Below, piece after piece: positions 1,580 through 32,696 of a stretch of DNA of 32,747 bases (within the stretch, counting starts at the first letter, position 1; the number at the start of each line of letters is the position of its first letter). The stretch is from Bacteroides sp. (GTDB taxonomy: Bacteria > Bacteroidota > Bacteroidia > Bacteroidales > Muribaculaceae). The stretch lies in contig JAMPBC010000012.1 of assembly GCA_023666905.1 (NCBI GenBank), positions 1 to 32,747 on the forward strand, written 5' to 3'. The notes beneath the pieces were generated by a model that saw only the letters and a program-made list of their open reading frames with translations, made no database searches and had not been told where the DNA came from. The position numbers and the translations under genes are program-made.

Positions 1580-1708
1580 GGTTTATGGGGCACAATGTAC
1601 GCAAAATTTTTGGATTGGCAAGGAGTTTTTTTAGATAACAGTGAATAATTAATAGATAACAGGGAATAGGTAATGGGTGATGGGCAGGGTTAAAATGTGT
1701 TAATATTG

Positions 1709-5808
<4,100 letters not shown>

Positions 5809-9642: not shown

Positions 9643-9715
9643 GGAAAACGTTTGCGTATTATTCAACATTACTAATAACTCAAAAACGCTTCATTTATTG
9701 CATGACAATGACAAA

Positions 9716-10888: not shown

Positions 10889-10892
10889 GACG

Positions 10893-14724: not shown

Positions 14725-14732
14725 GGTTGAAA

Positions 14733-15650: not shown

Positions 15651-15685
15651 TTCTGTTTTAATATGTTTTGTTGTAAAATAAATTC

Positions 15686-17904: not shown

Positions 17905-18732
17905 TTACTTTTTCTTGTTTTTCTTGATTTGCTTTTTAGCCGGGGTCTCGGCTTTGGCGGGAGTCTCGGCAATGATGCGCTGCAGGGTCACGGGATCGTT
18001 AGTGGTGATGTAGTCAACGCCCTGTTCAATGCACCATTGCATATCCTCGGGGGCGTTCACGGTCCAAACGTTCACTTCCAGCCCCAGGTCGTGGCACTGC
18101 TGAATCCATTCAGGGTGTTTGCGCATTGTTTTGAGCGAGTAGTCAATGCCGCGGCCTTTGGCATGCTTGATTTGTGCAGGCACATAGTCGCCTGAAAGAT
18201 AATACACGGCGGTGCCTTTGGGAGCTTTCTTAATGATTTCTCTGAAACCATCGCGTGAAAAGGTAATGTAGTCTGTGCGGTCGGCCAGTCCGTATTGGTC
18301 AATGAGTTTTACAATCTTGTCAATGGCGGCTATTTCGCGTTTGCGTGAGTCGTGTGTTTTGAGTTCGCACACAAGGCGCATATCCTTGTTGGGAAGTTTG
18401 GCTGCTTCGGCCAGATATTGGTCGAGAGTGGGAATGGTTTCACCGTTCGAGAGTTTCTCCTTAAGCACGGTTTGTGAGGGGGTGTTCTGTATTTCCACCC
18501 CGTTGATGTCGGCATCGTGGTTCACGAAGAGCACACCGTCCGGGCTCATCCAAACGTCAAATTCCGAGGCGAAGCAGCCCACGGAGTCGGCTTTCTGAAG
18601 TGATGCAATGGAGTTTTGTGCCGAGCCGGGGGTGTCCCAGAAACCGCGGTGGGCGATGACTTTGGGCTGGGCCACGGCGGCGCTGATGCAGGCTGTGAGT
18701 GCCATGGCTGAAAGAATTGTCTTGATTCGCAT
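17905..18732 (-). CDS. Secreted glycerophosphodiester phosphodiesterase
   Basis: A 275-residue GDPD-family enzyme that hydrolyses glycerophosphodiesters to sn-glycerol-3-phosphate and an alcohol. The signal peptide (MRIKTILSAMALTACISAAVA) places it in the periplasm or, if Cys15 is used, on a membrane. The catalytic HRG is in VIAHRGFW, metal ligands are in SEFDVW, and the second catalytic His is in FVNHDAD. The usual ENT after HRG is QNS here, a form I recall as common in Bacteroidetes paralogues. CELKTH, also a metal-site motif, and the late VWTVN are present. The tail is lysine-rich (KKQIKKNKKK). Third gene of its operon, 20 bp after the GH31 gene. It would supply the substrate of the GlpT and GlpABC proteins encoded nearby. 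Confidence 0.9.
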   Translation of the reverse strand: MRIKTILSAMALTACISAAVAQPKVIAHRGFWDTPGSAQNSIASLQKADSVGCFASEFDVWMSPDGVLFVNHDADINGVEIQNTPSQTVLKEKLSNGETIPTLDQYLAEAAKLPNKDMRLVCELKTHDSRKREIAAIDKIVKLIDQYGLADRTDYITFSRDGFREIIKKAPKGTAVYYLSGDYVPAQIKHAKGRGIDYSLKTMRKHPEWIQQCHDLGLEVNVWTVNAPEDMQWCIEQGVDYITTNDPVTLQRIIAETPAKAETPAKKQIKKNKKK

Positions 18733-18752
18733 GATTATGATATGGGTTATGG

Positions 18753-21008
18753 TTAAATGTCGTATTCAATGGTGAGTTTTCCGGTCAGGGGCATTGCCGG
18801 CACGTTCACTGACTGGATGCCGGTGGCGGGGTCGGCAGCTGTGGTGCGTTTCTTTCCGTTCACCTTAACCGTTGTGGCTTTGGTGAGCGTGGGAAGCTGC
18901 AGGGTGTAGGAACGTGATTTCACGCGCGACGGGTAGCTGCCCTTTGCCGGGTGTACGGTCACCGTGGTGTGGTTGCCGCGGCGAGTGTAGTTCAGGTCGG
19001 TTGTTGAGTATATTCCCTTGGTATAGTCAAGCGTAGTGCCGTCGTCCTCGTAAAGGGTAAATGTGTTGTCGGCATCGGTTTCCGAGGGGTAAATTCGCAT
19101 AATGAGATGGGTGAGGGGCTCTGTGGCGGGCCGGGCGGTGTAAGGCTGAAGCGGAAGCACCCATCCGCCACGAACGTACATGGGAAATTCATCGATGCTT
19201 TTGGCAATCTGCCTGGTCTGGCCACCCTGCTGAGGCTGATGGGTGAAGAAGTCGTACCACACTTCTCCCTCGGGGAACCACACTTTCTGTTCGGCAACGA
19301 GGTCCGCTCCGGTACCGGGTGAAGTGATGGGGGCGGCCATAATCAGGGGGCCGAAGGTGAATTGTTGCGGCTGGTGGAACGATTCGGGCTGTGTGCCGTA
19401 GTCAATGAACATGGAGCGGTTCAGCGGCACCATGGTGTTGTGGGTTTCCCACACGCAGGAGTAGATGTAGGGCATCAGCTGTGAGCGCAGGTGATACATG
19501 CGGCGCATGGCGCCCGTGAATTTCTCGCCTGAAATCCAGGGGCGGCGGTCCAATCGGGCATCCTTTGTGGAGTGCACGCGCAGAGCAGCCGACAGGGCAC
19601 CGAATTGAGTCCAGCGGGTGGTGAGCTCGGGGTTGGGTTCGCCTCGGAATCCACCGATGTCGTGGGCCCAGTAATAGCATCCGCCCTGGCCGGAGCATGC
19701 GGTGAGTTTAACCTCGAATGCCAGTATGGGCCAGTTGCTTTGGGCGTCGCCGGAAAATTGGATGGGGTGGCGATGGTCGCCCCAACCGCCCCAACGGCTG
19801 TAGCCGGCACCGCGTTGGCCTTTGGCTTGAGAGTCGCGATAGTAAAGTTCGTTGAGCCACTGCAAGGTGGTGGACTGATGTCCCGGCACTTTGGGATAGA
19901 GATAATTTTGCTGCCAGTCGAGCCACCAGAAGTCAACGCCCATATCCTCGCTTGGCCGGTGGGCATGGTTGAAGAATGCCGCCATGTAAGCGGAATCGGC
20001 CGGATTGAACAGAGGTACGTCGGAGCCGGTGTGTCCAAGCTCGGCAATGAAAGCGGAATATGAATCCTCGTGCGGACGCACACCGTCGTGGGGATGGTCG
20101 TTGAGCGAAACGGTCACTCCGCGATTGTGGCATGAGTCAATCAGGGCTTTGGGGTTCGGGATGAGTTCCTTGTTCCAACTGTAGCCGTTCCAGCTCAGAT
20201 TGCCGTTGTGGCCTGTGCCGGTAGTGGCATTGTTGGTGTGCCAACCCATGTCGAACACAATGTTGTCAAGCGGAAAGTCGTTTTCATCGTAGCCGCGCAC
20301 AATGTCAAGAAATTCGTCGGCGGTGTAATCCCAGTATCGGCAGTACCACACGCCGTGGATGTATTTTCGGGTCATTGGCACGCGGCCTGATATGGCACCG
20401 AGGCTTGACAATGCGGCGCGAAAATCATTGCCGTATATGAAACAGTACTGGTCCTGAATGTGATTGGCGGTGTTTCGGGGCTGAATCCAGCCGTTGACGA
20501 GCAGGTCCGATTGGCCATCGTCAATCATGTACCATCCATCCTTTGAAAGGATGCCGTCGTTCATGGGAATTTCGGCTGTCACGCGGTCAAGTGTCTCAAT
20601 TGGGCCGCCAAGGTTGTTCTTGGTTATGAAGCGGTTGGTGAATTTCTTCTCTTTGCCGTTGTGGGTGTAGAACACGTTGAGGTTAGCGGTGGAGAAGGGG
20701 AATCCGTCGTTGTGGTAGCGGATGCGCAGGGCCGGGGTGGTTATTTCAACCCAATTATTGGGGAGTTCGGTCACTGTGATTTGCGCGGTGTCCAGCATCG
20801 AGGAGCGGTCGTAGGCAAAAATGGTGGGCTCGTCAATGAAGTTGCTGTCGCGTGAGTGTTCCAGGCGCAGCAGCGTGGGGGTGATTATGCTGAGCCTGTT
20901 GCGGCCGAACACCAAGGGGTTCGACTTCTCAACGGCACTTGCCGGAAGTGTGAGGCCTGAGATGAGTGTGAGGCCGCACAGCAGCCATTTGGGGAGATTT
21001 TGTTTCAT
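18753..21008 (-). CDS. GH31 family alpha-glycosidase, secreted
   Basis: A 751-residue protein with a signal peptide (KWLLCGLTLISGLTLPASA) and GH31 layout: N-terminal beta-sandwich (about 25-220), catalytic barrel (about 230-560) and C-terminal sandwich domains. FWWLDWQQN contains the nucleophile (Asp364) and FSGDAQSNW the acid/base (Asp421); both are present, so it should be active with retention. The WLDWQQ motif departs from the WxDMNE of classical alpha-glucosidases and recalls the GH31 branch that includes alpha-N-acetylgalactosaminidases; that link is from memory and unproven. HDIGGFRG is also conserved. It overlaps the phosphoesterase gene by 4 bp (ATGA), so translation is coupled. It would remove alpha-linked sugars in the periplasm. 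Confidence 0.88.
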   Translation of the reverse strand: MKQNLPKWLLCGLTLISGLTLPASAVEKSNPLVFGRNRLSIITPTLLRLEHSRDSNFIDEPTIFAYDRSSMLDTAQITVTELPNNWVEITTPALRIRYHNDGFPFSTANLNVFYTHNGKEKKFTNRFITKNNLGGPIETLDRVTAEIPMNDGILSKDGWYMIDDGQSDLLVNGWIQPRNTANHIQDQYCFIYGNDFRAALSSLGAISGRVPMTRKYIHGVWYCRYWDYTADEFLDIVRGYDENDFPLDNIVFDMGWHTNNATTGTGHNGNLSWNGYSWNKELIPNPKALIDSCHNRGVTVSLNDHPHDGVRPHEDSYSAFIAELGHTGSDVPLFNPADSAYMAAFFNHAHRPSEDMGVDFWWLDWQQNYLYPKVPGHQSTTLQWLNELYYRDSQAKGQRGAGYSRWGGWGDHRHPIQFSGDAQSNWPILAFEVKLTACSGQGGCYYWAHDIGGFRGEPNPELTTRWTQFGALSAALRVHSTKDARLDRRPWISGEKFTGAMRRMYHLRSQLMPYIYSCVWETHNTMVPLNRSMFIDYGTQPESFHQPQQFTFGPLIMAAPITSPGTGADLVAEQKVWFPEGEVWYDFFTHQPQQGGQTRQIAKSIDEFPMYVRGGWVLPLQPYTARPATEPLTHLIMRIYPSETDADNTFTLYEDDGTTLDYTKGIYSTTDLNYTRRGNHTTVTVHPAKGSYPSRVKSRSYTLQLPTLTKATTVKVNGKKRTTAADPATGIQSVNVPAMPLTGKLTIEYDI

Positions 21009-22540
21009 AATGCCGTTGTTTCAGGATTGCGTAACGATTCTGTGTAAATGTTTCCGAATGGGTCTGTTGCCCTCACGGTGATTGATTTCCAGCCGTCGGC
21101 GGGAGTGTATAGGAACATGTGGTCGTTGATGTCGGCCGGTTTGGAGCCGCCGTGATTGGCGGGGAGTTTTCCGTTGACAAGGGCTTTGCGCACCGAGGGG
21201 TCCCAGCAACGTCCGCCCACTTTTTCGGGAATGAGGCGTGCATCGGCCGGGAGTGGCTTGAATTCGCCACCGTCTTCGCTCACTTCCACGTTCCAATCGG
21301 TGTGCCAACAGAAAATGTTGATGAGCACTTTGTTGTAGGGAGTGCCCTCGGGCACATCGGGATTCCAGAGCACCGCCTCAGCCGGGGCGTAGAGCTTCAT
21401 TTGATAGGAGCGGGGAAGTCCGGCTCCAACATAATATTTGTTCACAAGCTCCGGACCGTCAAATTCCAGAACGCCCACACCACGGGGTGAGCCGTCGTTG
21501 CAAATCGGATACCAGTATGCACCCATGGCGGCGCCGAGGGTTGTTTCGGTGATGTTGGGGGCTATGGTGGTGGTGAACTGATAGTGGGTGTGGCCCGATA
21601 GAATCTCAACACGTTTGAATGGTTTGAGCAGGCTGTAAAGCGTGTCGCTGTTGGCCAACGTCCAACCCGGGGCGTTGCGGCGCGATGTGGGGATGTGTAG
21701 GCCAAGGATTATTGTTTTGTCGTGCGGCACGTGTTCCAGGTCTTTTTTCAGCCACGCAAGTTGCTGATCGGTTATGCGCCCTGCGTAGTCGTTGCGGTTT
21801 TTCTTGCCGCTGTAAAGAATGTCGTCAATTGCAACAATGTGGCATGAGCCAATGTTGGCCGAATAGTAGGTGGGGCCTAAGTTGTTGCGGAATTCGCGGT
21901 CGCTTTCGGTGTCGTTGTGCACCTTCTCGTTGTGGTCATGATTGCCGATAACCGAAAAAACCGGTATGCCGAGCCGGGCTGTTTCGGAGGCATATTTGGA
22001 ATAAAGCCGGGGCGCGTTCCACACCACGTCGCCCAGTGTGATTCCGTACGTGTTTTCGGGCAAGCTATCGGTGAGCCGTTTTATCTGCGGCATGACAATG
22101 CCGGCATAGTCAAGGGTGTCGCGCACGCCAATCTGCGGGTCGGCTATGGCAAGAAGGGTCCAGCGTTCTTTCACCGGGGCCGATTTCAGTGCAAAATCAT
22201 GTTGCGAAGGGGCAAGGGTGTCGGTTATTTCGCTGTAAAATTTGGGCAGACCGTTTTCAAGGGGCACCTCGCAGTTGGCCGGAACGGACACGAATACGTG
22301 TTGACGCCCGTGGGAAGGAAGCTGGTATTCGCCTAGCTTGTCGGTTGTTACAATGTGAACGCCATCGCTTACCACCACTCCTTGGCGTGGCTTTCCGTCA
22401 ACGGTTACGCGACCGGTGACTGTCATCCCCTTGCGGGGATTTATTTTGGAGTTGGAGGCGTTGACTGCCAGACAGGAAAAGAGTAGACCGGCCGCAATGA
22501 GGGCTGTTTTACAAAGACGGGTTGCTATTTGTGAAGTCAT
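21005..22540 (-). CDS. Secreted calcineurin-like phosphoesterase with N- and C-terminal beta domains
   Basis: A 511-residue protein with a signal peptide (about residues 1-28). An N-terminal carboxypeptidase-regulatory-like domain (about 38-110, VTGRVTVDGKPRQGVVVSD) precedes the metallophosphoesterase fold: ADPQIG, GDVVW, GNHDH, GLHIP and GHTHYQ supply the usual dinuclear metal ligands. A C-terminal domain of about 150 residues follows, matching the MetallophosN/MetallophosC arrangement of Bacteroidetes enzymes. The bond cut is unknown; such folds hydrolyse phosphomonoesters or diesters. First gene of an operon with a GH31 enzyme and a glycerophosphodiesterase, which makes a phosphodiester of a glycosylated glycerophosphate a reasonable guess. 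Its promoter shares a 17-nt element with that of glpA. Confidence 0.88.
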   Translation of the reverse strand: MTSQIATRLCKTALIAAGLLFSCLAVNASNSKINPRKGMTVTGRVTVDGKPRQGVVVSDGVHIVTTDKLGEYQLPSHGRQHVFVSVPANCEVPLENGLPKFYSEITDTLAPSQHDFALKSAPVKERWTLLAIADPQIGVRDTLDYAGIVMPQIKRLTDSLPENTYGITLGDVVWNAPRLYSKYASETARLGIPVFSVIGNHDHNEKVHNDTESDREFRNNLGPTYYSANIGSCHIVAIDDILYSGKKNRNDYAGRITDQQLAWLKKDLEHVPHDKTIILGLHIPTSRRNAPGWTLANSDTLYSLLKPFKRVEILSGHTHYQFTTTIAPNITETTLGAAMGAYWYPICNDGSPRGVGVLEFDGPELVNKYYVGAGLPRSYQMKLYAPAEAVLWNPDVPEGTPYNKVLINIFCWHTDWNVEVSEDGGEFKPLPADARLIPEKVGGRCWDPSVRKALVNGKLPANHGGSKPADINDHMFLYTPADGWKSITVRATDPFGNIYTESLRNPETTAL

Positions 22541-22574
22541 TTAATGATTGGTTTAGAGTCAAGCTCTTATCAAA

Positions 22575-22633
22575 GCGAAACGTTTAAGGTTTCATTTCGC
22601 AACAAAAGTAGGCATTAAATGCTAATTCACAAA
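22575..22633 (-). promoter_or_regulatory. Promoter and candidate operator of the phosphoesterase operon
   Basis: On the minus strand TTTG (22630-22633) and TACTTTTG (22603-22610) are separated by 19 nt, a textbook Bacteroidetes promoter with a start near 22597. From the -7 box the sequence TACTTTTGTTGCGAAAT is identical to that at glpA. GCGAAA and TTTCGC (plus-strand 22575-22580 and 22595-22600) form an inverted repeat with a 14-nt spacer over the start site, a good place for a repressor. Confidence 0.75.
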
Positions 22634-22645
22634 GAAAAAGTGGAA

Positions 22646-23422
22646 TTATTTGTCGTCGACCGGCACAATCTTCAACTCAATGCCCAGGTCTTCGATGGAC
22701 TGTGCAATGGGTGCCGGGATGTGGGAGTCGGTGATAATTGTGTCCACTTCGGTAATGTTGGCGATTTTGCTGAATCCGCGGCGGCGGAATTTGGATGAGT
22801 CGGCCAACACGATGGTTTTCTGTGCCGTGCGCATCATTGCGCGGTTCAGTTCAGCCTCGCGAATGTCTGTTGTGGTGATTCCGAAATCAATGTCGATGCC
22901 GTCCACTCCAATGAACAGTTTGCTGCATGAAAATTCACATAGGGGGCTTTCGGCAAACTTGCCCACCACTGAGAGGGAGCTATGGCGAATGCTACCCCCA
23001 AGTTGCACAAGGTCAATTTGTTCATTTGTTCCAAGCAGTTGCGACACGGCCAGCGATGCGCTAATCACGGTGAGGCGATGAACCGGCATTATGCAGCGGG
23101 CAAAGGCAAGCAGCGTGGTCCCGGAGGCAATGATTATGGAATCGTCGCGGGTTATGAGCCTTGCGGCCTCGCGCCCAATCAGCTCTTTTTCGGAACGCTG
23201 CAGCTTCTCCTTCTCGCTGATTGAGCGATTGTTGATGTAGGGGTTTATCAACACGGCCTTTCCGTGGCTCCGGTAGAGCTTGTTGGCTGCTTCGAGTTCG
23301 GTGAGGTCCTTTCGGATGGTCACTGCCGATACGTCGAGCAACATGGAGAGGCTTGAAACAGGAATGGATTCGTGACGCATCAGTGTGTCCAGAATCAACT
23401 GATGGCGTTCTTCTTTGGTCAT
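22646..23422 (-). CDS. DeoR-family transcriptional regulator, GlpR-like
   Basis: A 258-residue cytoplasmic DNA-binding regulator. The N-terminal DeoR helix-turn-helix is clear: RHQLILDTLMRHESIPVSSL then LDVSAVTIRKDLTELE, with the conserved RSHGKAVL turn. The C-terminal sugar-phosphate sensor domain shows SGTTLLAFA, LGGSIR, FIGVDGID and VLADSSKF, all typical of DeoR-family effector domains. I choose the ATG at 23422 because the next in-frame ATG at 23446 lies at or before the predicted transcription start. It sits between the phosphoesterase operon and the divergent glp operon. By position and by the shared promoter element it probably represses both and is released by a phosphorylated intermediate such as glycerol-3-phosphate; that is inference. 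Confidence 0.9.
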   Translation of the reverse strand: MTKEERHQLILDTLMRHESIPVSSLSMLLDVSAVTIRKDLTELEAANKLYRSHGKAVLINPYINNRSISEKEKLQRSEKELIGREAARLITRDDSIIIASGTTLLAFARCIMPVHRLTVISASLAVSQLLGTNEQIDLVQLGGSIRHSSLSVVGKFAESPLCEFSCSKLFIGVDGIDIDFGITTTDIREAELNRAMMRTAQKTIVLADSSKFRRRGFSKIANITEVDTIITDSHIPAPIAQSIEDLGIELKIVPVDDK

Positions 23423-23450
23423 TGAGCTGTGATTGGTTCGGTTCATAGTG

Positions 23451-23482
23451 CAAAATTATGTAAAATCATTTTAGTTTACAAC
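23451..23482 (-). promoter_or_regulatory. Promoter of the DeoR-family gene
   Basis: On the minus strand TAATTTTG (23451-23458) matches TAnnTTTG. Twenty nt upstream is GTTG (23479-23482), a three-of-four match to TTTG. The transcript would start near 23445, giving a leader of about 22 nt before the ATG at 23422. Confidence 0.5.
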
Positions 23483-23504
23483 ATTTTAAGATTAAAAACG
23501 AAAT

Positions 23505-23537
23505 ATGTTGCACCCAATGAGGCGAATGATGCAACGT
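23505..23537. repeat. Inverted repeat between the divergent deoR-like and glpA promoters
   Basis: ATGTTGCA (23505-23512) and TGCAACGT (23530-23537) pair at seven of eight positions across a 17-nt spacer, with symmetry TTGCA/TGCAA. The same TGTTGC core recurs at the glpA and phosphoesterase start sites. A regulator-binding site is possible, since it lies upstream of both divergent promoters. Confidence 0.4.
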
Positions 23538-23561
23538 AATTATAATATAATTACCAAATAA

Positions 23562-23624
23562 TTTGGTTTTTCAACAAAACCTTATTACTTTTGTTGCGAA
23601 ATAAAAACAGTAGCAAAACGAAAC
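23562..23624 (+). promoter_or_regulatory. Promoter and candidate operator of the glp operon
   Basis: TTTG (23562-23565) and TACTTTTG (23586-23593) are 20 nt apart, an exact Bacteroidetes promoter. The start should be near 23600, with a leader of about 94 nt. GCGAAA (23596-23601) and ACGAAAC (23618-23624) form a direct repeat with a 22-nt step just over and after the start site. The stretch 23586-23602 is identical to the phosphoesterase promoter. Confidence 0.8.
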
Positions 23625-23693
23625 CAATCACTCTCCTTTTCGTAATCTCCACCCTCTTACCATCGGCCCGATGATGACATAGGGCACATTGCA

Positions 23694-25403
23694 ATGGATA
23701 AAAATAAACCAACACCCCATTACGACGTGATTGTGGTGGGTGCCGGAGCTACAGGTGCCGGCACAGCCCGCGACTGCGCCATGCGTGGTCTTAAGGTGCT
23801 TCTGGTGGAGCGGTTTGATTTCACGGCCGGTGCCACCGGTCGTAATCACGGCCTGCTTCACAGCGGAGCCCGATATGCAGTCACTGACCAGGAATCGGCT
23901 TCGGAATGTATAAAGGAAAACATGATTCTGAGGCGTATAGCAAGCCACTGTGTGGAAGAAACCGGCGGTCTGTTTGTGACGCTCCCGGACGATGACCTGG
24001 ATTATCAGGCCACTTTCGTTGAATCGTGCCGCAAGGCCGGAATCAACGCCGAGATAATTGATCCCGAGCAGGCCAAGAAGATGGAGCCTGCTGTTAACCC
24101 CGAGATTATAGGGGCGGTGAAAGTGCCCGACGGGGCGGTTGACCCCTTCCGCCTTACCACCGCCAATGCCATAGCTGCCCGCAGAAACGGTGCTGACATT
24201 CTTACCTATCACGAGGTGGTGGCGCTGAACATTTCGCAGGGCCGGGTTACCGGTGTTACATTGCGCGACCAGCGTACCGGCCAAGAGAAGCGCATCGATG
24301 CCAAGTTGGTGGTGAACGCCGCCGGCATCTGGGGCCAAGGCATTTGCAAACTGGCAGGCATAACGGTGAATATGTTTCCTGCAAAAGGCGCGCTGCTCAT
24401 TTTCGGGCATCGCGTCAACAATATTGTGATAAATCGTTGCCGCAAGCCGGCCGATGCCGATATTCTTGTGCCCGGCGACACAATTTCGCTTATCGGTACA
24501 ACGTCCAGCCGTGTGCCTTACGACGAGGTGGATAACATGGAGGTGACGCCTCAGGAGGTGGACATTCTGCTGCGCGAAGGGTGCCGGATTGCTCCCTCGC
24601 TCGCCTACACCCGCATTCTCCGGGCATACGCCGGCGTGCGTCCGCTCGTGGCTGCCGACAACGATCCCTCGGGGCGCAGCATCAGCCGAGGAATTGTTTG
24701 TCTTGACCACGCCACCCGCGACGGGCTCGAGGGCTTCATAACCATCACCGGCGGCAAGTTGATGACTTACCGCCTTATGGCCGAATGGGCAACTGACCTC
24801 GTTTGCCGCAAATTGGGCGTAGATGCCGAATGTCAGACGGCCGAAGTGCCTCTGCCCGGTTCCGACCAATCGGACAAGGATGCCCCGGTTAGCCGTGGCA
24901 AGCATCACATCATCGAACTGCCCACCGATCAGAAAGCCGCTCAGGGTCGACACGGTTCCCTTACATCCGACATTGAGTTTGCTCGCGAAAACGAGGCTCT
25001 TGTTTGCGAATGTGAGGAGGTGTCGGTTGGCGAAATCCGCTATGCTATCCGCGAGCTTCACGCCAACAATCTTGTGAATCTTCGCCGGCGCACCCGTCTG
25101 GGCATGGGCACATGTCAGGGTTGCCTTTGCGCCTGCCGTGCAGCCTCCATTCTTGGAAATGAGCTTGGCGACCGTCCGCATGCTCTGCGCGACTTGTGTA
25201 AATTCCTTAACGAACGCTGGAAGGGCATGCTGCCTGTGGGATGGGGTCAGACGCTTGTGGAGGCCCAGTTCTCATCGTGGCTCTATCAAGGTGTGTGCGG
25301 CATTGACCCGGCACGGCTTCCACAACCCGACGGACACACTCCAACAACTCCCACCAGTGCCGCCGAAACCAATTCATCCACCAACACCGAGGCAAAATCA
25401 TGA
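23694..25403 (+). CDS. glpA: Anaerobic glycerol-3-phosphate dehydrogenase subunit A
   Basis: The 569-residue FAD-binding catalytic subunit oxidises sn-glycerol-3-phosphate to dihydroxyacetone phosphate. The N-terminal dinucleotide fold is VVGAGATGAGTARD (GAGATG at 16-21), followed by GATGRNHGLLHSGARYA, diagnostic of this oxidoreductase family, and later ITGGKLMTYRLMAEWATD. The C-terminal BFD-like [2Fe-2S] domain has CECEEVS and GTCQGCLCACR, as expected for GlpA and absent from aerobic GlpD. The tail after about 540 is low in complexity (rich in Pro, Thr, Ser). First gene of a six-gene operon; its last codons overlap glpB by 4 bp. It acts with GlpB and GlpC at the inner membrane, probably feeding menaquinone. 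Confidence 0.96.
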   Translation: MDKNKPTPHYDVIVVGAGATGAGTARDCAMRGLKVLLVERFDFTAGATGRNHGLLHSGARYAVTDQESASECIKENMILRRIASHCVEETGGLFVTLPDDDLDYQATFVESCRKAGINAEIIDPEQAKKMEPAVNPEIIGAVKVPDGAVDPFRLTTANAIAARRNGADILTYHEVVALNISQGRVTGVTLRDQRTGQEKRIDAKLVVNAAGIWGQGICKLAGITVNMFPAKGALLIFGHRVNNIVINRCRKPADADILVPGDTISLIGTTSSRVPYDEVDNMEVTPQEVDILLREGCRIAPSLAYTRILRAYAGVRPLVAADNDPSGRSISRGIVCLDHATRDGLEGFITITGGKLMTYRLMAEWATDLVCRKLGVDAECQTAEVPLPGSDQSDKDAPVSRGKHHIIELPTDQKAAQGRHGSLTSDIEFARENEALVCECEEVSVGEIRYAIRELHANNLVNLRRRTRLGMGTCQGCLCACRAASILGNELGDRPHALRDLCKFLNERWKGMLPVGWGQTLVEAQFSSWLYQGVCGIDPARLPQPDGHTPTTPTSAAETNSSTNTEAKS

Positions 25404-26662
25404 AATACGATACCATTATAATAGGAGGCGGACTCAGCGGACTTGTGGCCGGTGTGAAGCTTGCCTCGCAAAACCGGAAGGTGGCCATTGTGACCTCCGG
25501 CCAAAGTGCCCTTCACTTCTCGTCGGGTTCTGCTTCGCTATTGAGTCGTAATGAGCAGGGCGAGGTTATTACTAACCCGCTTGAAGAGATGGCTAAACTT
25601 CCCGACTCGCATCCCTATAAGAAAATAGGCACCGACCGCATCGCGCCTTTGGCTCATGAGGCAATGAAGCTCCTCAACAGTGTGGGGGTGAAGATGGAAG
25701 GACACGTTGGGCATTGCCGCTATCGCCTCACACCAATGGGCATGTGGGAACCGACCTGGATGTCGCTCGAGGAGCTTGCATCGTGCGAGCATCCTTCAAC
25801 CTGCCCTTGGCGCAAGGCGGCCATAGTGAATTTCAACGGGTATCTTGACTTTTTCCCCGAATATCTTGCCGACGGACTCTCGCGCATGGGAATCAAGGCC
25901 ACCTGCCATGTGGTTACGCTTCCGGAACTGGCGCGCCTGCGCAAAAGTTGCTCGGAGATGCGTGCCGCTTCCATTGCAAAAGTGCTTCGCGGCGAGGTGC
26001 TTGAAGCTCTCGGGGCCGAGCTGCTCCGCGTTGCCGGCGATGCCGATGTGATTCTGCTCCCGGCCGTTGTTGGCCTCAAGTCCAATAATGAGGTTCAGCA
26101 ACTCACCGATTTGGTGAACAAGCCCGTGCGTTTTGTGCCGGTTATCCCCATGTCGGTGGTGGGCGTTCGCAGCGAGTTCATGTTCCGACACCGCTTCGAA
26201 CAGCTCGGCGGCACATACCTGTTGGGCGACAGTGTGAAAAAAGGTCTGTTCCAAAACGGACATCTCCACGCAATCCACACCGTGAATCTGGGTGAGGAAA
26301 CTCCTCTGGAAGCCGATCATTTCATACTTGCCACCGGCAGCTTTTTCAGCCAGGGACTTGTGGCCAAACCTGACACCATTGAGGAACCGGTGTTCGGACT
26401 GGATGTCGACCAGACAGCCGAGCGCACCGAGCGTTACAGCAAAAACTTTTTCGACGCTCAGCCTTATATGCGGTTCGGAGTGCACACTGACTCGGAATTC
26501 CGCGTAAGTCTCAATGGGGAAACCATCGATAACCTTCGGGCTGTAGGTGCCATTCTTTCGGGAGCGAATCCGCTCAAGGAGGGCTCCGGAGCCGGCATTG
26601 CCATGCTCACGGCACTTGAAACAGCTAACCGCATTCTCTCACTTAGCAACAATCCAAGCTGA
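25400..26662 (+). CDS. glpB: Anaerobic glycerol-3-phosphate dehydrogenase subunit B
   Basis: The 420-residue flavin-binding subunit of the GlpABC complex. The start is the ATG within the ATGA overlap with glpA. The N-terminal FAD motif is IIIGGGLSGLVAGVKLA, followed by TSGQSALHFSSGSASLL, conserved in GlpB. The C-terminal FAD-contacting part has LRAVGAILSGANPLKEGSGAG and a FILATGSFFSQGLVA segment. Length is close to that of E. coli GlpB. It is thought to pass electrons from GlpA to the iron-sulphur subunit GlpC, whose gene starts with a 1-bp overlap at the glpB stop. Confidence 0.95.
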   Translation: MKYDTIIIGGGLSGLVAGVKLASQNRKVAIVTSGQSALHFSSGSASLLSRNEQGEVITNPLEEMAKLPDSHPYKKIGTDRIAPLAHEAMKLLNSVGVKMEGHVGHCRYRLTPMGMWEPTWMSLEELASCEHPSTCPWRKAAIVNFNGYLDFFPEYLADGLSRMGIKATCHVVTLPELARLRKSCSEMRAASIAKVLRGEVLEALGAELLRVAGDADVILLPAVVGLKSNNEVQQLTDLVNKPVRFVPVIPMSVVGVRSEFMFRHRFEQLGGTYLLGDSVKKGLFQNGHLHAIHTVNLGEETPLEADHFILATGSFFSQGLVAKPDTIEEPVFGLDVDQTAERTERYSKNFFDAQPYMRFGVHTDSEFRVSLNGETIDNLRAVGAILSGANPLKEGSGAGIAMLTALETANRILSLSNNPS

Positions 26663-27903
26663 TGGAATTACAAGTATCCAACATAAGCCCCAATAACCTC
26701 GAACAGTGCATAAAGTGCACCATTTGCACTGTTTACTGCCCTGTTCTTTCAGTTAATCCTGACTATCCGGGACCCAAGCAGGCCGGCCCCGACGGTGAAC
26801 GCTATCGCTTGAAGGATCCCGAATTTTACGACAAAGCCCTCAAAATGTGCCTCAATTGCAAGCGTTGTGAGGTGGCTTGTCCGTCGGGCGTGAAAATTGG
26901 CGACATCATTCAGATGGCCCGCATAAAATATGACCACCACACGCCGCCGTTGCGCGACCGCATGCTCGCCTCCACTGACGAGATGGGAAGCATGGCCACG
27001 CTGGTTGCCCCCATTGTCAACACCATGCTGCGGCTGTCGCCCGTGAAGGCGGTGATGGATGCCACGGTTGGAATTGACAAGCACCGAACATTCCCGGCAT
27101 ACGCATCGCGCACATTCACCAGCTGGTTCAAGCACAAAGCTCCGGACCAGTCGCAATTCAAGAACCGGGTGAGCTACTTCCACGGTTGCTATGTGAACTA
27201 CAATAATCCCTCGCTGGGACGCGATTTTGTTTCGGTGATGAACGCAATTGGTTACGGTGTGGACCTTCTTGAAAAAGAACGTTGCTGCGGCGTTGCCAAA
27301 ATTGCCAATAAGCTCATTAAGCAAGCCACGCGCGACGCCAAAACCAACATTGCCTCCATCACCAAGGCTGTCGATGCCGGTAACATGGTGCTCGGAACAA
27401 GCTCCACATGCATCTTCACCATGCGCGACGAGTATCCCCACCTGCTCAACGTTGACAACTCCAACGTGCGCTCATCCATTTCGCTCGCTACAAAGTTCAT
27501 TCACGAACTTGTCGATTCCGGCAAGGTGAAGCTCGTGTTTCGCCCTGACTTCAAGTTGCGGCTCACTTACCACATTCCCTGCCACATGCAGCGCATGGGT
27601 TGGGCCATCCATTCACTTGAACTGCTGAAAATGATTCCCGGCGTGGAGCTGGTTCCCATTGAATCGTCATGTTGCGGAATTTCCGGCACCTATGGATTCA
27701 AAAAGGAAAACTACCGTACCTCGCAGGCCGTGGGGAAAGAGTTGTTCGACTCCATTCTGGCCGCCAATGTGGATGTGGTTGCAACTGACTGCGAGACATG
27801 CAAATGGCAAATTGAAATGTCAACCGGCGTCACCGTCGAAAACCCCGTGACCATTCTGGCTCATGCGCTTGACCTTGAAGCCACTCGTAAAGCAAATAAT
27901 TAA
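26662..27903 (+). CDS. glpC: Anaerobic glycerol-3-phosphate dehydrogenase iron-sulphur subunit C
   Basis: The 413-residue electron-transfer and membrane-anchoring subunit. Two ferredoxin-type [4Fe-4S] motifs are near the N-terminus: CIKCTICTVYC (Cys16, 19, 22, then Cys26) and CLNCKRCEVACP (Cys63, 66, 69, then Cys73). Two CCG domains follow, with YFHGCYVNYNNP plus ERCCGVA and HIPCHMQRMG plus ESSCCGISGTYGFKKE, as in heterodisulphide-reductase-like proteins. The ATG at 26662 overlaps the glpB stop by one base. With all three subunits intact, the operon should give a working respiratory dehydrogenase suited to fumarate respiration. Confidence 0.95.
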   Translation: MELQVSNISPNNLEQCIKCTICTVYCPVLSVNPDYPGPKQAGPDGERYRLKDPEFYDKALKMCLNCKRCEVACPSGVKIGDIIQMARIKYDHHTPPLRDRMLASTDEMGSMATLVAPIVNTMLRLSPVKAVMDATVGIDKHRTFPAYASRTFTSWFKHKAPDQSQFKNRVSYFHGCYVNYNNPSLGRDFVSVMNAIGYGVDLLEKERCCGVAKIANKLIKQATRDAKTNIASITKAVDAGNMVLGTSSTCIFTMRDEYPHLLNVDNSNVRSSISLATKFIHELVDSGKVKLVFRPDFKLRLTYHIPCHMQRMGWAIHSLELLKMIPGVELVPIESSCCGISGTYGFKKENYRTSQAVGKELFDSILAANVDVVATDCETCKWQIEMSTGVTVENPVTILAHALDLEATRKANN

Positions 27904-27916
27904 CCAATCAATACCA

Positions 27917-29461
27917 ATGAGTAAAGAAAACATTTTCGCCGGCTGGGATGCACCCACGGTTAAACGATTCAAGCAATGGCAGATGCGAACCATCCTTGTG
28001 TCCATGATTGGATATGCCATTTATTATTTTGTACGTAAAAACTTTTCAGTTGCCATGCCCGGACTCACCGCGCAATATGGCATCACGAATACCAGTTTCG
28101 GTATAATCATAGGTATAGGTTCATTGATTTATGGTTTCTCCCGCTTTATCAATGGATTTGTGGTTGACAGGGCCAGCTCGCGCCTTGTAATGGCCGTTGG
28201 ATTGCTGCTGTGTGCCGCCACTAACTTCTGCTTTGGTTTCGGCGTCAACATCAGCGGCATGATTGTCGGTGGATATGAAGGCCCCGATTTTGTTAACATG
28301 CTCATACTGGTGATGGGTGTCACCAGTATTCTTAACCAATACTTCCAAGGTATCGGTTACCCACCGTGTGCGCGCCTGCTCCCCTCATGGATTCACCCGT
28401 CGGAACTTGCCACCAAAATGTCAATCTGGAACACATCGCACTCCATCGGTGCCGGCGCAGCTGTGCTTGCCTGCGGTTTCATCATGGGACAGATGGGTCA
28501 GGACCTCAGTGGAAATCCCGAGATAATCGACACCATTGCCCGTAACCTTAAGCTTGACCCCTCCAATGCCGATAATCTCAAAACCATTATGGGTTACGCA
28601 AGCCACTGGGATGCATGGCGCTGGTGCTTCTGGCTCCCCGGCTGCCTTGCTGTGGTTGGCGCTATCTGGCTTTATGTGGGATTGCGCGACGACCCCCGCT
28701 CAGTTGGCCTCCCCGAACTCCCCGGCACAAACACCGGTAAAAAAACCGGCAAAGATGGTAAAAAATCGGCCTCACACTCCAAGTTCCTCAAAGCCATGGT
28801 TTGGACCAACCGCTGGATTTGGACACTTTGCATTGCCAATGTGTTCGTTTACGTGATGCGCATGGGTATTCTTGACTGGGGTCCCAAGTTCCTCACCGAG
28901 GCTCGCGGCATGTCCATTGAAATGGCCGCCACCTCTGTGGCCATCTTTGAAATCTGCGCCATTGTGGGCACAATCATTGCCGGTTGGTCAACCGACCATA
29001 TTTTCAAAGGCAAAGCCCACCGCATGTGCCTCATTTGCATGGTGGGTGCCGTGTTGTTCATGTCGCTTTTCATCTTCATTACCGGAATTCCCACCGGATT
29101 CTCCATTGCACTGCTCGCCATGGCCGGTTTCTTCATCTATGGTCCTCAGGCTCTGATTGGTATCGCATCGGCTAACCATGCCACCAAAGATGCATCGGCC
29201 ACAGCCAACGGCCTTGCCGGAATTTTCGGTTATGTAGGTTCGTTCCTCTCGGCAATCGGTATCGGTTTCATCGCCGACCATTACGGCTGGAACACCGTGT
29301 TCTTCCTTATTATAGGTGTGGGTGTGCTCGGTGCCATCACATTCCTCACAATGTGGGCCGCTCCCCGCGACGGTTACGCCCGCTCCAACGCCTTCTATGC
29401 CAAACAGCAGGAAGAAGAGGCAATGGCTGAAGCCGGTGACCTTAACGACACTGACCTTTAA
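27917..29461 (+). CDS. glpT: Glycerol-3-phosphate transporter, MFS organophosphate:phosphate antiporter
   Basis: A 514-residue inner membrane protein with 12 predicted helices. The start at 27917 gives MSKENIFAGWDAPTVKRFKQ, after which YFVRKNFSVAMPGL matches the OPA-family helix 1 signature (YxxRxNxS.A.P). Helix 2 is followed by GFSRFINGFVVDRASSRL, corresponding to the loop that carries the family motif in GlpT and UhpT. The middle loop (KKTGKDGKKS) splits the two halves. Several glycine-rich and aromatic helices fit GlpT; UhpT or PgtP specificities cannot be excluded from sequence, but position after glpABC strongly favours glycerol-3-phosphate. No periplasmic signal peptide. Thirteen bp after glpC. 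Confidence 0.9.
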   Translation: MSKENIFAGWDAPTVKRFKQWQMRTILVSMIGYAIYYFVRKNFSVAMPGLTAQYGITNTSFGIIIGIGSLIYGFSRFINGFVVDRASSRLVMAVGLLLCAATNFCFGFGVNISGMIVGGYEGPDFVNMLILVMGVTSILNQYFQGIGYPPCARLLPSWIHPSELATKMSIWNTSHSIGAGAAVLACGFIMGQMGQDLSGNPEIIDTIARNLKLDPSNADNLKTIMGYASHWDAWRWCFWLPGCLAVVGAIWLYVGLRDDPRSVGLPELPGTNTGKKTGKDGKKSASHSKFLKAMVWTNRWIWTLCIANVFVYVMRMGILDWGPKFLTEARGMSIEMAATSVAIFEICAIVGTIIAGWSTDHIFKGKAHRMCLICMVGAVLFMSLFIFITGIPTGFSIALLAMAGFFIYGPQALIGIASANHATKDASATANGLAGIFGYVGSFLSAIGIGFIADHYGWNTVFFLIIGVGVLGAITFLTMWAAPRDGYARSNAFYAKQQEEEAMAEAGDLNDTDL

Positions 29462-29502
29462 AAGTGAACATGCTTTAAGAGTAAAATCATAATCCATAAG
29501 AA

Positions 29503-30372
29503 ATGACAACTCCAACCTGCAACACATATCTCTCGCCAATGTCGGCCGACGAATTGCGTCAGGCTTGTCGCAAAATCAAGCATGTGGCGCTTGACATGGA
29601 CGGGACCATATACATGGGTTCACACCTGTTCCCATTCACTCAGGATTTCCTTGCCATGTTGCGCGAGAACGGAATAGGTTACTCGTTCCTCACCAACAAC
29701 CCTACCCGGAGCATAGCCGACTATCTGGCCAAGCTTGAGAAAATGGGCATAGAGGCCTCGACCGACAATATGTACACCACCGCCGTAGCCACTATCGATT
29801 ATCTCAAGGCTAACATGCCGGATGTGAAACGACTTTTTGTGGTGGGCACGCCCAGCATGAAGGCCGAATTCGAACGCGCCGGCTTTGAGCTTACCAAACC
29901 TTCGGCCGACGATATGCCCCAGGCGCTTGTGGTGGCCTTCGATACCACTCTGGAATATGAGCGCCTTTGCCATGCCTCGTGGCTGGCCGCCCAGGGTGTT
30001 CCTTACATTGCCACGAACCCGGACCGCGTTTGCCCCACCAATCTTCCCACGGTGCTTGTGGACTGTGGCTCACTCTGTGCCTGCATTGAACATGCCACAT
30101 CGCGCAAACCCGACATTGTGATTGGCAAGCCTAACCCCGACATGCTTTCGGGCATCCGCTTCCGCCACGGACTGCAAGCCGATGAGATTGCAATGTGCGG
30201 CGACCGCATCTACACCGACGTGGCCATGGCCCGCAATGCCGGAGCCCTCGGGGTGCTGGTGCTTTCCGGCGAAACCACCCTTGATACGGCTTTGAACTCC
30301 GACCCGCAACCGCCCATCACTGCCAAGAACATTCTTGAATTTGGCAAACTCCTTGTTGAATCAAAGAAATAA
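29503..30372 (+). CDS. HAD-superfamily IIA phosphatase, NagD/phosphoglycolate-phosphatase-like
   Basis: A 289-residue cytoplasmic phosphatase. Motif I is LDMDGTIYMG (Asp31 and Asp33 as nucleophile and acid), motif II is FLTNNPTRS, the lysine motif is GKPNPDML, and motif IV is CGDRIYTDVAMARNAG. The cap inserted between motifs II and III is the C2 type of NagD and PGP. Some members of this group (mammalian PGP, mycobacterial Rv1692) dephosphorylate glycerol-3-phosphate. Given its place in a glp operon, 41 bp after glpT and 19 bp before an alpha-galactosidase, glycerol-3-phosphate or a galactosylglycerol phosphate is the most sensible substrate guess. Confidence 0.88.
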   Translation: MTTPTCNTYLSPMSADELRQACRKIKHVALDMDGTIYMGSHLFPFTQDFLAMLRENGIGYSFLTNNPTRSIADYLAKLEKMGIEASTDNMYTTAVATIDYLKANMPDVKRLFVVGTPSMKAEFERAGFELTKPSADDMPQALVVAFDTTLEYERLCHASWLAAQGVPYIATNPDRVCPTNLPTVLVDCGSLCACIEHATSRKPDIVIGKPNPDMLSGIRFRHGLQADEIAMCGDRIYTDVAMARNAGALGVLVLSGETTLDTALNSDPQPPITAKNILEFGKLLVESKK

Positions 30373-30391
30373 ATTCAAAACCGCATTTGCC

Positions 30392-32587
30392 ATGAAAAAG
30401 TTACTGGCTTTGTTTATCAGCCTCGCCGTGCCCGCAATGGCGCTTCAGGCCGAAAACGTGAAGGTGGACACACCTTCATCCTCACTCGTTTTGCAAGCTG
30501 ACAAGGGCAAGAAACTCAAACACCTCTATTATGGTGGCCGAATTTCCGATGCCGATGTGAAAAATCTCCGTTCGGCCGGAGCTCCCAACCTGTCGGCCTA
30601 TCCCGACTATGGGGTGGACCCCTCCAACGAACCGGCCATTGCGGTTCGGCATGCCGATGGAAACATGACCCTGGACCTGGTGGTGGAAGATGTTACCAGG
30701 TCACAATCAAATGGCGGTGAGCTGACCACCATCCATCTGCGCGACTCGCACTATCCTTTCAACGTTGATGTGAACTATCGTACATATCCCGGTCTTGATG
30801 TGGTTGAGACCTGGACCGAGATTTCTCACAACGAGAAGAAGCCGGTAACGCTCAATAGGTTTGCATCGGGCTATCTACCCGTGCGCTATGGCGATGTGTG
30901 GCTCTCTAATTTCTATGGCTCGTGGGGCAACGAGGCTCGTCTGGATTGCCAGCCGCTGGCCCATGGCATGAAGGTGATTAAGAACCGCGACGGCGTGCGT
31001 AACTCGGCAACCGCCCACAGCGAAGTGATGTTTTCGCTTGACGGCAAACCGGCCGAAAACCACGGCCGGGTTATCGGTGCCGCTCTTTGCTACGACGGCA
31101 ACTACCGTTTGGCCATTGACACCGATGCCGGAAACTATCATCATTTCATTGCCGGAATAGATGAAACCCAATCGACCTACAACCTCAAACCCAAAGAAGT
31201 GTTCACAACTCCCGTGTTGGCTCTTAGCTATTCCAACGAGGGGCTTGGCGGTGTGAGCCGCAGCTTCCACAAGTGGGGCCGCGAAAAGCGCATGGCACAT
31301 GGCAACGAACTCCGCCCCGTGCTCCTTAACAGCTGGGAAGGTGTTTACTTTGACATCAAGGAACCGGAAATGGACCAGATGATGGCCGACATTGCCGCTA
31401 TGGGTGGCGAGCTGTTCGTTATGGACGATGGCTGGTTCGGCGTGAAATATCCCCGCAACAATGACACCCAGGGCCTGGGCGACTGGACAGTTGATACCCG
31501 CAAACTCCCCGGTGGAATCAACGGGTTGCTTGAGTCAGCCAAAAAGCATGGCGTGAAGTTCGGCATTTGGATTGAGCCTGAAATGGTGAACAAGGGGAGT
31601 GAACTCTATGAGGCTCACCCCGAATATGTGGTGAAGGCCCCTAATAGGGACTTTACTTACGGTCGTGGCAAAAGCCAAATGGTGCTTGACCTTTCCAACC
31701 CCAAAGTTCAGGACATTGTGTTCACGATTGTCGACACGTTGATGACCAATTACCCTGACATTGCCTACATTAAGTGGGATGCCAACATGCCAATCCGTAA
31801 TCACGGGTCGCAATATCTGTCGGCCGACAACCAAAGCCATCTGTTCATTGACTATCATCGCGGGCTTGCCAAGACGCTCGACCGTATTCGCGCCAAATAT
31901 CCCGATGTGCTTATCCAGGCATGCGCCAGCGGTGGCGGCCGCGCCAACTGGGGTGTTCTTCCCTGGTTCGACGAGTTCTGGACCTCGGACAACACCGACG
32001 CTCTCCAACGCGTGTACATCCAGTGGGGCACATCATACTTCTACCCTGCAATAGCCATGGCCTCGCACATCTCGGCAGCTCCAAATCACCAGACACAGCG
32101 CACCATGAACCTGAAGTATCGTACTGACGTGGCCATGAGCGGACGCTTAGGCATGGAAATCCAGCCGCAAAACATGACCGAGGCTGAGCGTGAGCAGTGC
32201 CATAAGGCCATTGAGGAATACAAGGCCCATATCCGTCCGCTGGTACAGCAGGGCGATCTTTACCGACTGCTCTCGCCATACGATGGTCTTGGCGCCGCAT
32301 CGTTGCTCTACGCCGCTCCGGACAAGGATTCGGCCGTGTACTTCTGGTGGAAAACCGAGGCATTCCGCAACAAGCAGTATCCCCGTGTGAAAATGGCCGG
32401 ACTTGACCCTGAAAAGGTTTACAAAGTGACAGAAATGAACCGCATTGACCGCGCACCACTCAAATTTGAGGGTAAGACGTTCAGCGGACGTTATTTGATG
32501 GATAACGGACTTGAAATGCCTGTTAATCTCAATGCCGATGGCAGGGACGAATGGGCATCGCGAGTGCTTCTGCTCACAGCTCAATAA
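30392..32587 (+). CDS. GH36 family alpha-galactosidase, secreted
   Basis: A 731-residue protein. The start is the ATG followed by a signal peptide (KKLLALFISLAVPAMALQA); an in-frame ATG at 30335 lies within the HAD gene and is rejected. An N-terminal beta-supersandwich (about 25-310) precedes the barrel, with LFVMDDGWFG, FGIWIEPEMV, the nucleophile in YIKWDAN (Asp463), ACASGGGR and the acid/base in WTSDNTD (Asp533). These are classical GH36 residues for release of terminal alpha-galactose with retention. The final about 100 residues form a beta domain. Last gene of the glp operon, followed by a strong terminator at 32665-32696. Its place suggests removal of alpha-galactose from a glycerol-containing compound. 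Confidence 0.93.
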   Translation: MKKLLALFISLAVPAMALQAENVKVDTPSSSLVLQADKGKKLKHLYYGGRISDADVKNLRSAGAPNLSAYPDYGVDPSNEPAIAVRHADGNMTLDLVVEDVTRSQSNGGELTTIHLRDSHYPFNVDVNYRTYPGLDVVETWTEISHNEKKPVTLNRFASGYLPVRYGDVWLSNFYGSWGNEARLDCQPLAHGMKVIKNRDGVRNSATAHSEVMFSLDGKPAENHGRVIGAALCYDGNYRLAIDTDAGNYHHFIAGIDETQSTYNLKPKEVFTTPVLALSYSNEGLGGVSRSFHKWGREKRMAHGNELRPVLLNSWEGVYFDIKEPEMDQMMADIAAMGGELFVMDDGWFGVKYPRNNDTQGLGDWTVDTRKLPGGINGLLESAKKHGVKFGIWIEPEMVNKGSELYEAHPEYVVKAPNRDFTYGRGKSQMVLDLSNPKVQDIVFTIVDTLMTNYPDIAYIKWDANMPIRNHGSQYLSADNQSHLFIDYHRGLAKTLDRIRAKYPDVLIQACASGGGRANWGVLPWFDEFWTSDNTDALQRVYIQWGTSYFYPAIAMASHISAAPNHQTQRTMNLKYRTDVAMSGRLGMEIQPQNMTEAEREQCHKAIEEYKAHIRPLVQQGDLYRLLSPYDGLGAASLLYAAPDKDSAVYFWWKTEAFRNKQYPRVKMAGLDPEKVYKVTEMNRIDRAPLKFEGKTFSGRYLMDNGLEMPVNLNADGRDEWASRVLLLTAQ

Positions 32588-32664
32588 ACAACATCACCCA
32601 ACAACCCGTTTCAACCATTGCGGGATAGGCATATTGCTCCGCGTGGTTTGATACTCAGAAGGGG

Positions 32665-32696
32665 GAAGGCGGCGAACCTAATGGTCCGCCGCCTTC
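32665..32696 (+). terminator. Terminator of the glp operon
   Basis: GAAGGCGGCG (32665-32674) pairs perfectly with CGCCGCCTTC (32687-32696), and inner ACC/GGT pairs extend the stem. A short TTT follows at once. It lies 77 bp after the alpha-galactosidase stop. The remaining 50 bp to the window end show no gene. Confidence 0.88.

Follow-up and report, generated by a model that had tools for sequence, protein, structure and literature searches.

The stretch of DNA analysed here, referred to below as the window, comprises all 32,747 nucleotides of contig JAMPBC010000012.1 read on the forward strand (assembly GCA_023666905.1, deposited as Bacteroides sp. and placed by GTDB in the Muribaculaceae). 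Between positions 17905 and 32587 it carries two divergent operons in which genes for predicted secreted phosphodiesterases and glycosidases lie beside genes for glycerol-3-phosphate transport and oxidation (Table 1). On the minus strand, the gene for a DeoR-type regulator is followed by those for a metallophosphoesterase (MPE), a GH31 enzyme and a glycerophosphodiester phosphodiesterase (GDPD), with MPE and GH31 overlapping by 4 nt and GH31 and GDPD separated by 20 nt. The order on the plus strand is glpA-glpB-glpC, a GlpT-type transporter, a HAD phosphatase and GH36, the last beginning 19 nt past HAD if translation starts at the ATG that we picked within the open reading frame (ORF) 30335-32587. 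An earlier note on this DNA had described such a cluster, with a 17-nt element common to its promoters. Both claims held up: Pfam and NCBIfam domain scans recovered every gene that it named and the element stands in exact form before both operons. By GlpA sequence, the closest relatives are Paramuribaculum and other Muribaculaceae assemblies.

Table 1. Genes and promoter features of the locus, with positions in the window and the matches behind each assignment
Feature	Position	Strand	Evidence
GDPD, secreted glycerophosphodiester phosphodiesterase	17905..18732	-	PF03009 81 bits (cut-off 23.6); best PDB relative 3no3
GH31, secreted	18753..21008	-	PF01055 171 bits; 7wj9 E 9e-109, closest solved relative an alpha-1,3-glucosidase
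Metallophosphoesterase (MPE), secreted	21005..22540	-	PF16371 MetallophosN, PF00149 Metallophos and PF16370 MetallophosC above cut-off
Promoter and putative DeoR operator, MPE-GH31-GDPD operon	22566..22610	-	exact 17-nt element, then TGAAAC-N8-TTTCGC
DeoR/GlpR-type regulator	22646..23446	-	PF00455 156 bits; PF08220 52 bits
Promoter and putative operator, glp operon	23586..23625	+	17-nt element, then AAACGAAAC
glpA, anaerobic glycerol-3-phosphate dehydrogenase subunit A	23694..25403	+	TIGR03377 778 bits (cut-off 553)
glpB, subunit B	25400..26662	+	TIGR03378 405 bits (cut-off 174)
glpC, subunit C	26662..27903	+	TIGR03379 581 bits (cut-off 280)
GlpT/PgtP/UhpC-type organophosphate transporter (major facilitator superfamily)	27863..29461	+	TIGR00712 272 bits; 1pw4 GlpT E 2e-61
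HAD-IIA phosphatase	29503..30372	+	TIGR01460 128 bits (cut-off 100); 1vjr best
GH36, secreted, alpha-galactosidase-like	30392..32587	+	PF02065 377 bits; AgaB 4fnq E 5e-114

The assignments differ in how far they reach. The three adjacent GlpABC subunits each score above their equivalogue cut-off. The label glpT given to the transporter in the earlier note stands as far as a GlpT-type organophosphate antiporter, under which we file it, but the protein falls short of the 633 bits of the GlpT equivalogue. The regulator has the DeoR helix-turn-helix and sensor domains, though it is above no NCBIfam equivalogue cut-off. The GH36 domain set is complete, with the N-terminal domain PF16875, the PF02065 barrel and the C-terminal domain PF16874 all above cut-off, whilst the relatives of the HAD-IIA protein include the glycerol-3-phosphate phosphatases 4i9f and 7po7, so that glycerol phosphate is possibly its substrate. 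MPE, GH31, GDPD and GH36 have hydrophobic N-termini by a simple heuristic; lipobox-like motifs (LFSC in MPE, LTAC in GDPD) indicate that these two may be either periplasmic or lipoproteins. The MPE motifs GD, GNHDH, H and GHxH, which we take to form the metal site, are invariant across 15 aligned sequences, and the MPE profile reaches the purple acid phosphatases and Rv0805 and, weakly, 2zo9/3d03 (E 0.006).

PDB entry 7wj9, which together with its D-to-A variant 7wjc we take to be LlGH31_u1 of Lactococcus lactis, is identical to the window GH31 in 166 of 487 columns (34%), and both the catalytic pair and the main subsite residues are conserved. The equivalents of D341, D394, H280, Q343 and F391 are the same, Y99 is replaced by F and H427 fell within an alignment gap. 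By its catalytic Asp pair and glucose-binding residues, the window enzyme thus appears to qualify as a GH31_u1 alpha-1,3-glucosidase. LlGH31_u1 is reported to prefer nigerose, with kojibiose used at 13% of that efficiency; unlike the window protein, which is predicted to be secreted, it is described as a hexamer without a signal peptide, encoded in a sugar-transport cluster (PMC9061262).

The two operons are tied together by their promoters. The 17-nt element, TACTTTTGTTGCGAAAT, is found exactly at 23586-23602 (plus strand), before glpA, and at 22610-22594 (minus strand), before MPE. Its first 8 nt match what we take to be the Bacteroidetes -7 box, TAnnTTTG, and part of the element is therefore presumably promoter. 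Elsewhere in the window genome the first 16 nt have no exact copy, and a copy with one mismatch lies inside an unrelated ORF. When this 16-mer, TACTTTTGTTGCGAAA, was searched for in 16 genomes with up to one mismatch, 17 matches were found in 10 genomes against a single match for the pattern read backwards. All 13 exact matches were upstream of glpA, HAD or MPE, as were two of the four copies with one mismatch; the other two lay elsewhere, one of them within an ORF. In G144 and G175 (sampled genomes carry G numbers, fetched loci L numbers) the element is found on two contigs, before glpA and HAD on the first and before an MPE-lip-lip-SusC-SusD-MPE-GH31 unit on the second. Seven MPE/lip promoters, from the window and six relatives in four genera, align as TAnTTTyGTTGCGnnnTGAAAC-N7/8-TTTCG, and AAACGAAAC, the reverse complement of GTTTCGTTT, is present in the promoter before glpA in the window, L002, L003 and L004. 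None of the promoter patterns tried was found in the two units from Bacteroides described below. The glycan-active genes may be co-regulated through this element, which precedes both operons and is nearly specific genome-wide. A DeoR gene occurs in 32 of the 64 regions around glpA, in most cases transcribed divergently from that gene, and from its position and type we infer that its product binds the shared element. A shorter pattern, TGAAACN{5,8}TTTCGTT, was dropped as a stand-alone regulon finder since it is only half specific: in 13 genomes it had 17 matches, of which 7 fell at MPE/lip promoters, one before a second-type MPE in G008 and 9 elsewhere or unassigned, against 10 for the backwards control.

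Further evidence comes from the distribution of the genes across 198 Muribaculaceae genomes, many with short contigs, which makes an absence less certain than a presence. In this sample glpA occurs at 64 places in 59 genomes, and all 64 neighbourhoods, those in the window and L003 among them, were read. GH36 follows HAD in seven (G000, G117, G036, G102, G173, G194 and G038), and these are exactly the glpA genomes (7/59) with GH31 no more than 15 kb from glpA. GH36 is generally common (55/198 genomes), the glp-operon copy being a second GH36 in G117, G102, G173 and G038. A GH31 search of the same sample returned 19 genomes at E <=1e-120, of which 12, the window's included, hold an orthologue of at least 69% identity, and up to 20 kb around each of the 12 was read, the window and L003 serving for two of them. 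glpA is present in 11 of these 12 genomes compared with 48 of the 186 remaining ones (Fisher 7e-6, uncorrected for kinship). Four of the 11 (G104, G131, G144 and G175) have the GH31 unit on another contig from glp or more than 1 Mb away from it, with GDPD placed after glpT in the glp operon; the remaining seven have GDPD next to GH31. GDPD is thus found in one of the two operons in every genome having both GH31 and glpA (11/11).

Against 37 control stretches, picked by contig number from glpA genomes (five of them under 7 kb), the 64 glp regions gave 9 vs 0 for GDPD, 6 vs 0 for MPE, 7 vs 0 for GH36 and 2 vs 0 for GH97. GH31 was found in three glp regions and one control, where one of the three and the control match have only 22-24% identity; the remaining linked GH31 genes fall just outside the counted regions. 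In L014, from outside the sample, GH36 is in the glp locus and a SusD-MPE-GH31 piece is on another contig of the genome. A chance neighbourhood of the two operons was rejected on the strength of the shared element and the co-occurrence. The view of the earlier note that the operons belong together is accordingly supported: they are linked in five Muribaculaceae genera, co-occur when unlinked and, in two unlinked genomes, have the element in common. The conservation survey that it called for upholds linkage and co-occurrence in relatives but does not extend to the family's glp operons as a whole, most of which are without glycosidases.

In 10 of the 12 orthologue genomes MPE immediately precedes GH31, and in G038 a second MPE type lies within the cluster. 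Ahead of MPE, seven relatives (G102, G173, G104, G144, G175, G194 and G036) have SusC and SusD, the pair for import across the outer membrane. G038 has the pair within the same cluster, and G167, on a short contig, has SusD only. The order lip-lip-SusC-SusD-MPE-GH31-GDPD, divergent from glpA beside DeoR, is seen in G173, G194, G036 and G102. SusD of this type (at least 59% identity) occurs in 8 of the 198 genomes, all eight of which hold the GH31 orthologue. Neither SusC nor SusD was found at the locus in the window or in L003 (G117). The window locus is thus related to polysaccharide utilisation loci and is not one itself, the SusC/SusD pair being absent from its unit.

The 12 Muribaculaceae orthologues form one set in a GH31 tree (100/98), on which the MPE-linked label needs two changes, so that the tree does not show the linkage to have arisen only once. 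An order-wide search for the GH31 at E 1e-200 matched 2 of 393 genomes, the window's own and G431, and around GH31 of the latter a phmmer search of 40 kb gave no match to glp, MPE or GDPD. GH31 of the Bacteroides faecalis type is present in 3 of 80 Bacteroides genomes; in one of these, G608, the locus is GH36-GH31-sulfatase-like, and neither MPE nor GDPD was matched in 40 kb. GH31 paralogues (47-50% identity) were also seen in four loci (L096, L097, L098 and L100) with SusC and repeated endonuclease/exonuclease/phosphatase-like proteins, and with GH97 in two of them; these loci perhaps target another phosphodiester-linked glycan.

SusC/SusD pairs are also part of the units in B. faecalis and Bacteroides G632, and here, as elsewhere, the accessory enzymes differ. 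The B. faecalis unit, in which GDPD lies 3.5 kb and glpA 7.8 kb from GH31, ends with GH89 (alpha-N-acetylglucosaminidase), a family that is also found in the G038 cluster. The G632 unit reads GH31-SusC-SusD-MPE-lip-GH65-MPE-GDPD-GlpT/PgtP-like-GH31, its GH65 scoring above the NCBIfam kojibiose-hydrolase cut-off (860 against 800 bits; closest 7fe3). L006 has GH97 placed after glpC and before glpT, and GH36 is followed there by an endonuclease/exonuclease/phosphatase-family protein. The L006 GH97 is 75-76% identical to a GH97 encoded at 1725-3905 of the window (plus strand), which is nearest the retaining alpha-galactosidases at 291 bits, under the cut-off of 800. A PHB-type esterase gene comes after GDPD in G102 and G173, before glpA in L006 and after MPE-GDPD in Heminiphilus faecis; a suitable, if hypothetical, role for it would be to remove D-alanine esters. 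Across these relatives the recurring core is phosphodiesterases together with glycerol-3-phosphate import and oxidation, and the variable part is alpha-glycosidases of glucose, galactose and N-acetylglucosamine families. That the alpha-glycosidases vary by lineage, as the decorations of teichoic acids do, suggests a target: the make-up of teichoic acids, a glycerol-phosphate chain bearing species-specific sugars, matches the core and variable part of the locus.

On balance, we lean towards the view that the locus is a DeoR-controlled regulon for the use of alpha-glycosylated glycerol-phosphate polymers or oligomers, most likely teichoic acids that Gram-positive gut neighbours shed. From the gene content we infer the substrate, the enzyme activities and the following order of steps. 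Outside the inner membrane, MPE would cut phosphodiesters, presumably within the chain, GH31 and GH36 would remove alpha-glucose and alpha-galactose from the glycerol units, and GDPD would next free glycerol-3-phosphate from the bared ends. The GlpT-type antiporter would bring this in for oxidation by GlpABC to dihydroxyacetone phosphate, with electrons passing to quinone, and the HAD phosphatase might dephosphorylate excess or wrong-enantiomer glycerol phosphate. Lacking SusC/SusD of this type, the window organism presumably takes up short fragments.

GlpABC oxidises sn-glycerol-3-phosphate, so that a polymer of this enantiomer fits the scheme directly. Wall teichoic acid is reported to be such a polymer, whereas lipoteichoic acid is built of sn-glycerol-1-phosphate and would fit only after an inner cut, which MPE could supply (PMC7086022). 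The exo-acting GDPD GlpQ is reported to be unable to degrade intact lipoteichoic acid and to halt at glycosylated units (PMC7086022), so that glycosidases would be needed. Wall teichoic acid of the sn-glycerol-3-phosphate type thus fits better than intact lipoteichoic acid. Suitable decorations have been described: the wall teichoic acid of Lactobacillus plantarum as poly(6-kojibiosyl-alpha1-glycerol 3-phosphate) (PMC9396385), that of Bacillus subtilis as bearing alpha-glucose (PMC7086022) and the lipoteichoic acid of Listeria as bearing galactose (PMC5836110). Of the substrate proposed in the earlier note, then, sugar-bearing glycerophosphate survives, backed by the SusC/SusD and alpha-glycosidases of relatives, whilst lipoteichoic acid in particular is not established.

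A number of observations weigh against this preferred reading. Most glp operons of the family are without glycosidases (GH36 in 7 of 64 glpA regions), and SusC is not enriched near glpA (11/64 regions against 5/37 controls). In G131, GH31 lacks an adjacent MPE, and the best SusD match in the window genome is 37% over 118 amino acids, with no close SusD of the type. The 16-mer is absent from 6 of the 16 genomes searched, including the GH31-bearing G194, G104 and G131. Outside the sample, L004 and L006 have GH36 after HAD and no GH31, which holds for the fetched locus only. L012, where three tandem GDPD genes (234-2590, minus strand) follow MPE beside DeoR and glpABC, has a core of MPE and three GDPDs with no glycosidase seen on the contig; H. 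faecis has MPE-GDPD-esterase and a glp operon (L010) without GH36. ORFs that by eye are GH2-like were seen near glp in L007 and L010 and some 2 kb outside the G102 unit. Past glpT-GDPD, the locus in G104 and G131 leads on into a sulfatase-like/SusC locus, a hint that the substrate differs in these two genomes, and glp-linked units may serve several substrates. These continuations (L204 4311-15856 and L205 2382-13844) encode radical-SAM-like and sulfatase-like proteins, both named by eye rather than by scan, SusC and two large unknown proteins.

Some of these points would suit the scavenging of small glycerophosphodiesters (glycerophospho-choline, -ethanolamine, -glycerol or -inositol from dietary or host phospholipids), with the glycosidases as passengers for dietary alpha-galactosides and alpha-glucosides. 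In several relatives no glycosidase was seen alongside DeoR, glp, GDPD and MPE, and a genome without SusC/SusD of this type, such as the window's, suits small substrates. We nevertheless consider this unlikely: the glycosidases sit tight in their operons (the 4-nt overlap of GH31 with MPE, the 19 nt between HAD and GH36), glp-operon GH36 and nearby GH31 coincide in seven of seven sample genomes, lineages add other alpha-glycosidases (GH97 in L006, GH89, GH65) and several relatives have SusC/SusD. Because relatives add SusC/SusD and further alpha-glycosidases, sugar-bearing glycerophosphate explains the locus better than the plain phospholipid head groups that the earlier note had kept as an alternative.

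SusC/SusD would fit equally a capsule, exopolysaccharide or rhamnose-rich wall polysaccharide with glycerol phosphate side groups, and glycerol phosphate is a reported substituent of lactobacillus surface polysaccharides (PMC12413058). The families in the unit (GH31 and GH36, with GH97, GH89 and GH65 in relatives) are, however, mainly exo-acting alpha-glycosidases, and no endo-glycanase or lyase match was found among the scanned unit proteins, the GH2-like ORFs near relatives' loci being outside the scan; a target of this kind seems to us rather doubtful.

The use of galactosyl- or glucosylglycerol and glyceroglycolipids (deacylated digalactosyldiacylglycerol (DGDG), lipoteichoic anchors), with glycerol-3-phosphate drawn from other sources, is improbable. 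A search of the window genome, which is 92% complete, for glycerol kinase (TIGR01311) gave no match, and free glycerol would therefore not enter GlpABC; moreover, the unit holds two phosphodiesterase families. GH2-like ORFs near some relatives' loci (by eye) would be in keeping with such a diet, and anchors such as Gal(alpha1-2)Glc(alpha1-3)DAG (DAG, diacylglycerol) exist and match the GH36/GH31 pair (PMC3089915). The lack of a kinase gene, which the earlier note pointed out for the cluster and took as a sign that glycerol-3-phosphate is the intended input, holds for the whole window genome and not for the class of loci: 7 of 11 locus-bearing genomes searched have a glycerol kinase above cut-off elsewhere in the genome.

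Known systems resemble parts of the locus. In Escherichia coli, glpTQ and glpABC provide an exported glycerophosphodiesterase, import by GlpT and oxidation by GlpABC with a DeoR-family regulator, much as here; unlike the locus, they include no glycosidases, MPE or SusC/SusD, and their substrates are deacylated phospholipids. The GlpQ/PhoD teichoicases of B. subtilis likewise pair a GDPD that frees glycerol-3-phosphate from polyglycerolphosphate with a second, endolytic phosphodiesterase that is reported to cleave glycosylated wall teichoic acid, but they act on the cell's own wall (PMC7086022). The window MPE differs in its MetallophosN and MetallophosC domains. We know of no alpha-glycosidase or SusC/SusD unit attached to GlpQ/PhoD.

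GH31, GH65 and GH97 together also form a dextran locus, FjDexUL of Flavobacterium johnsoniae, which is a further point against our preferred reading (PMC10316084). Like the units described here, FjDexUL has SusC/SusD, GH31, GH97 and a GH65 kojibiose hydrolase, and is directed at products of lactic acid bacteria; it differs in having its own GH66 dextranase and no glp gene among the eight listed, and the term phosphoesterase is absent from the text of the paper (PMC10316084). That a branched alpha-glucan locus of this sort merely adjoins glp by chance is very improbable, since even where the operons are unlinked they share the promoter element and occur in the same genomes. No GH66 match was found in Pfam scans of the proteins, although no search was aimed at GH66. 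Among the matches listed in the open-licence PMC literature (titles and abstract openings) no Bacteroidota teichoic-acid locus was found, which is not proof of absence.

Two other features of the window may be mentioned. At 9716-16981 (minus strand) there is a sialate-like cluster encoding an MFS transporter, a NanA-like lyase, a creatininase-like protein, an iron alcohol dehydrogenase and a 1029-amino-acid GDSL, SASA and NANM-type fusion. The NanA-like protein is far under the equivalogue cut-offs, and the substrate of this cluster may therefore not be Neu5Ac (N-acetylneuraminic acid). A PorV-type protein is encoded at 8425-9669 (minus strand), and type IX secretion may be present in the organism.

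More tentatively, and with less confidence than for the regulon itself, we propose that Bacteroidales possess a dedicated system for teichoic acids, in which a core of MPE, GDPD, a GlpT-type transporter and GlpABC under one DeoR regulon would be joined by lineage-specific alpha-glycosidases (GH31, GH36, GH97, GH89 and the GH65 kojibiose hydrolase) matched to the decorations of the Gram-positive organisms that each lineage consumes, in some cases with an esterase. The regulon can be tested through the promoter element that its operons share, and from the variable glycosidases one could predict the decorations that a given strain is able to use. If this proposal is true, the wall polymers of Gram-positive neighbours serve as food for gut Bacteroidales, a cross-feeding route without description in the open-access literature searched. 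Because teichoic acids are immune-active and phosphate-rich, the locus would then affect both what the host sees and the fate of phosphate and glycerol-3-phosphate.

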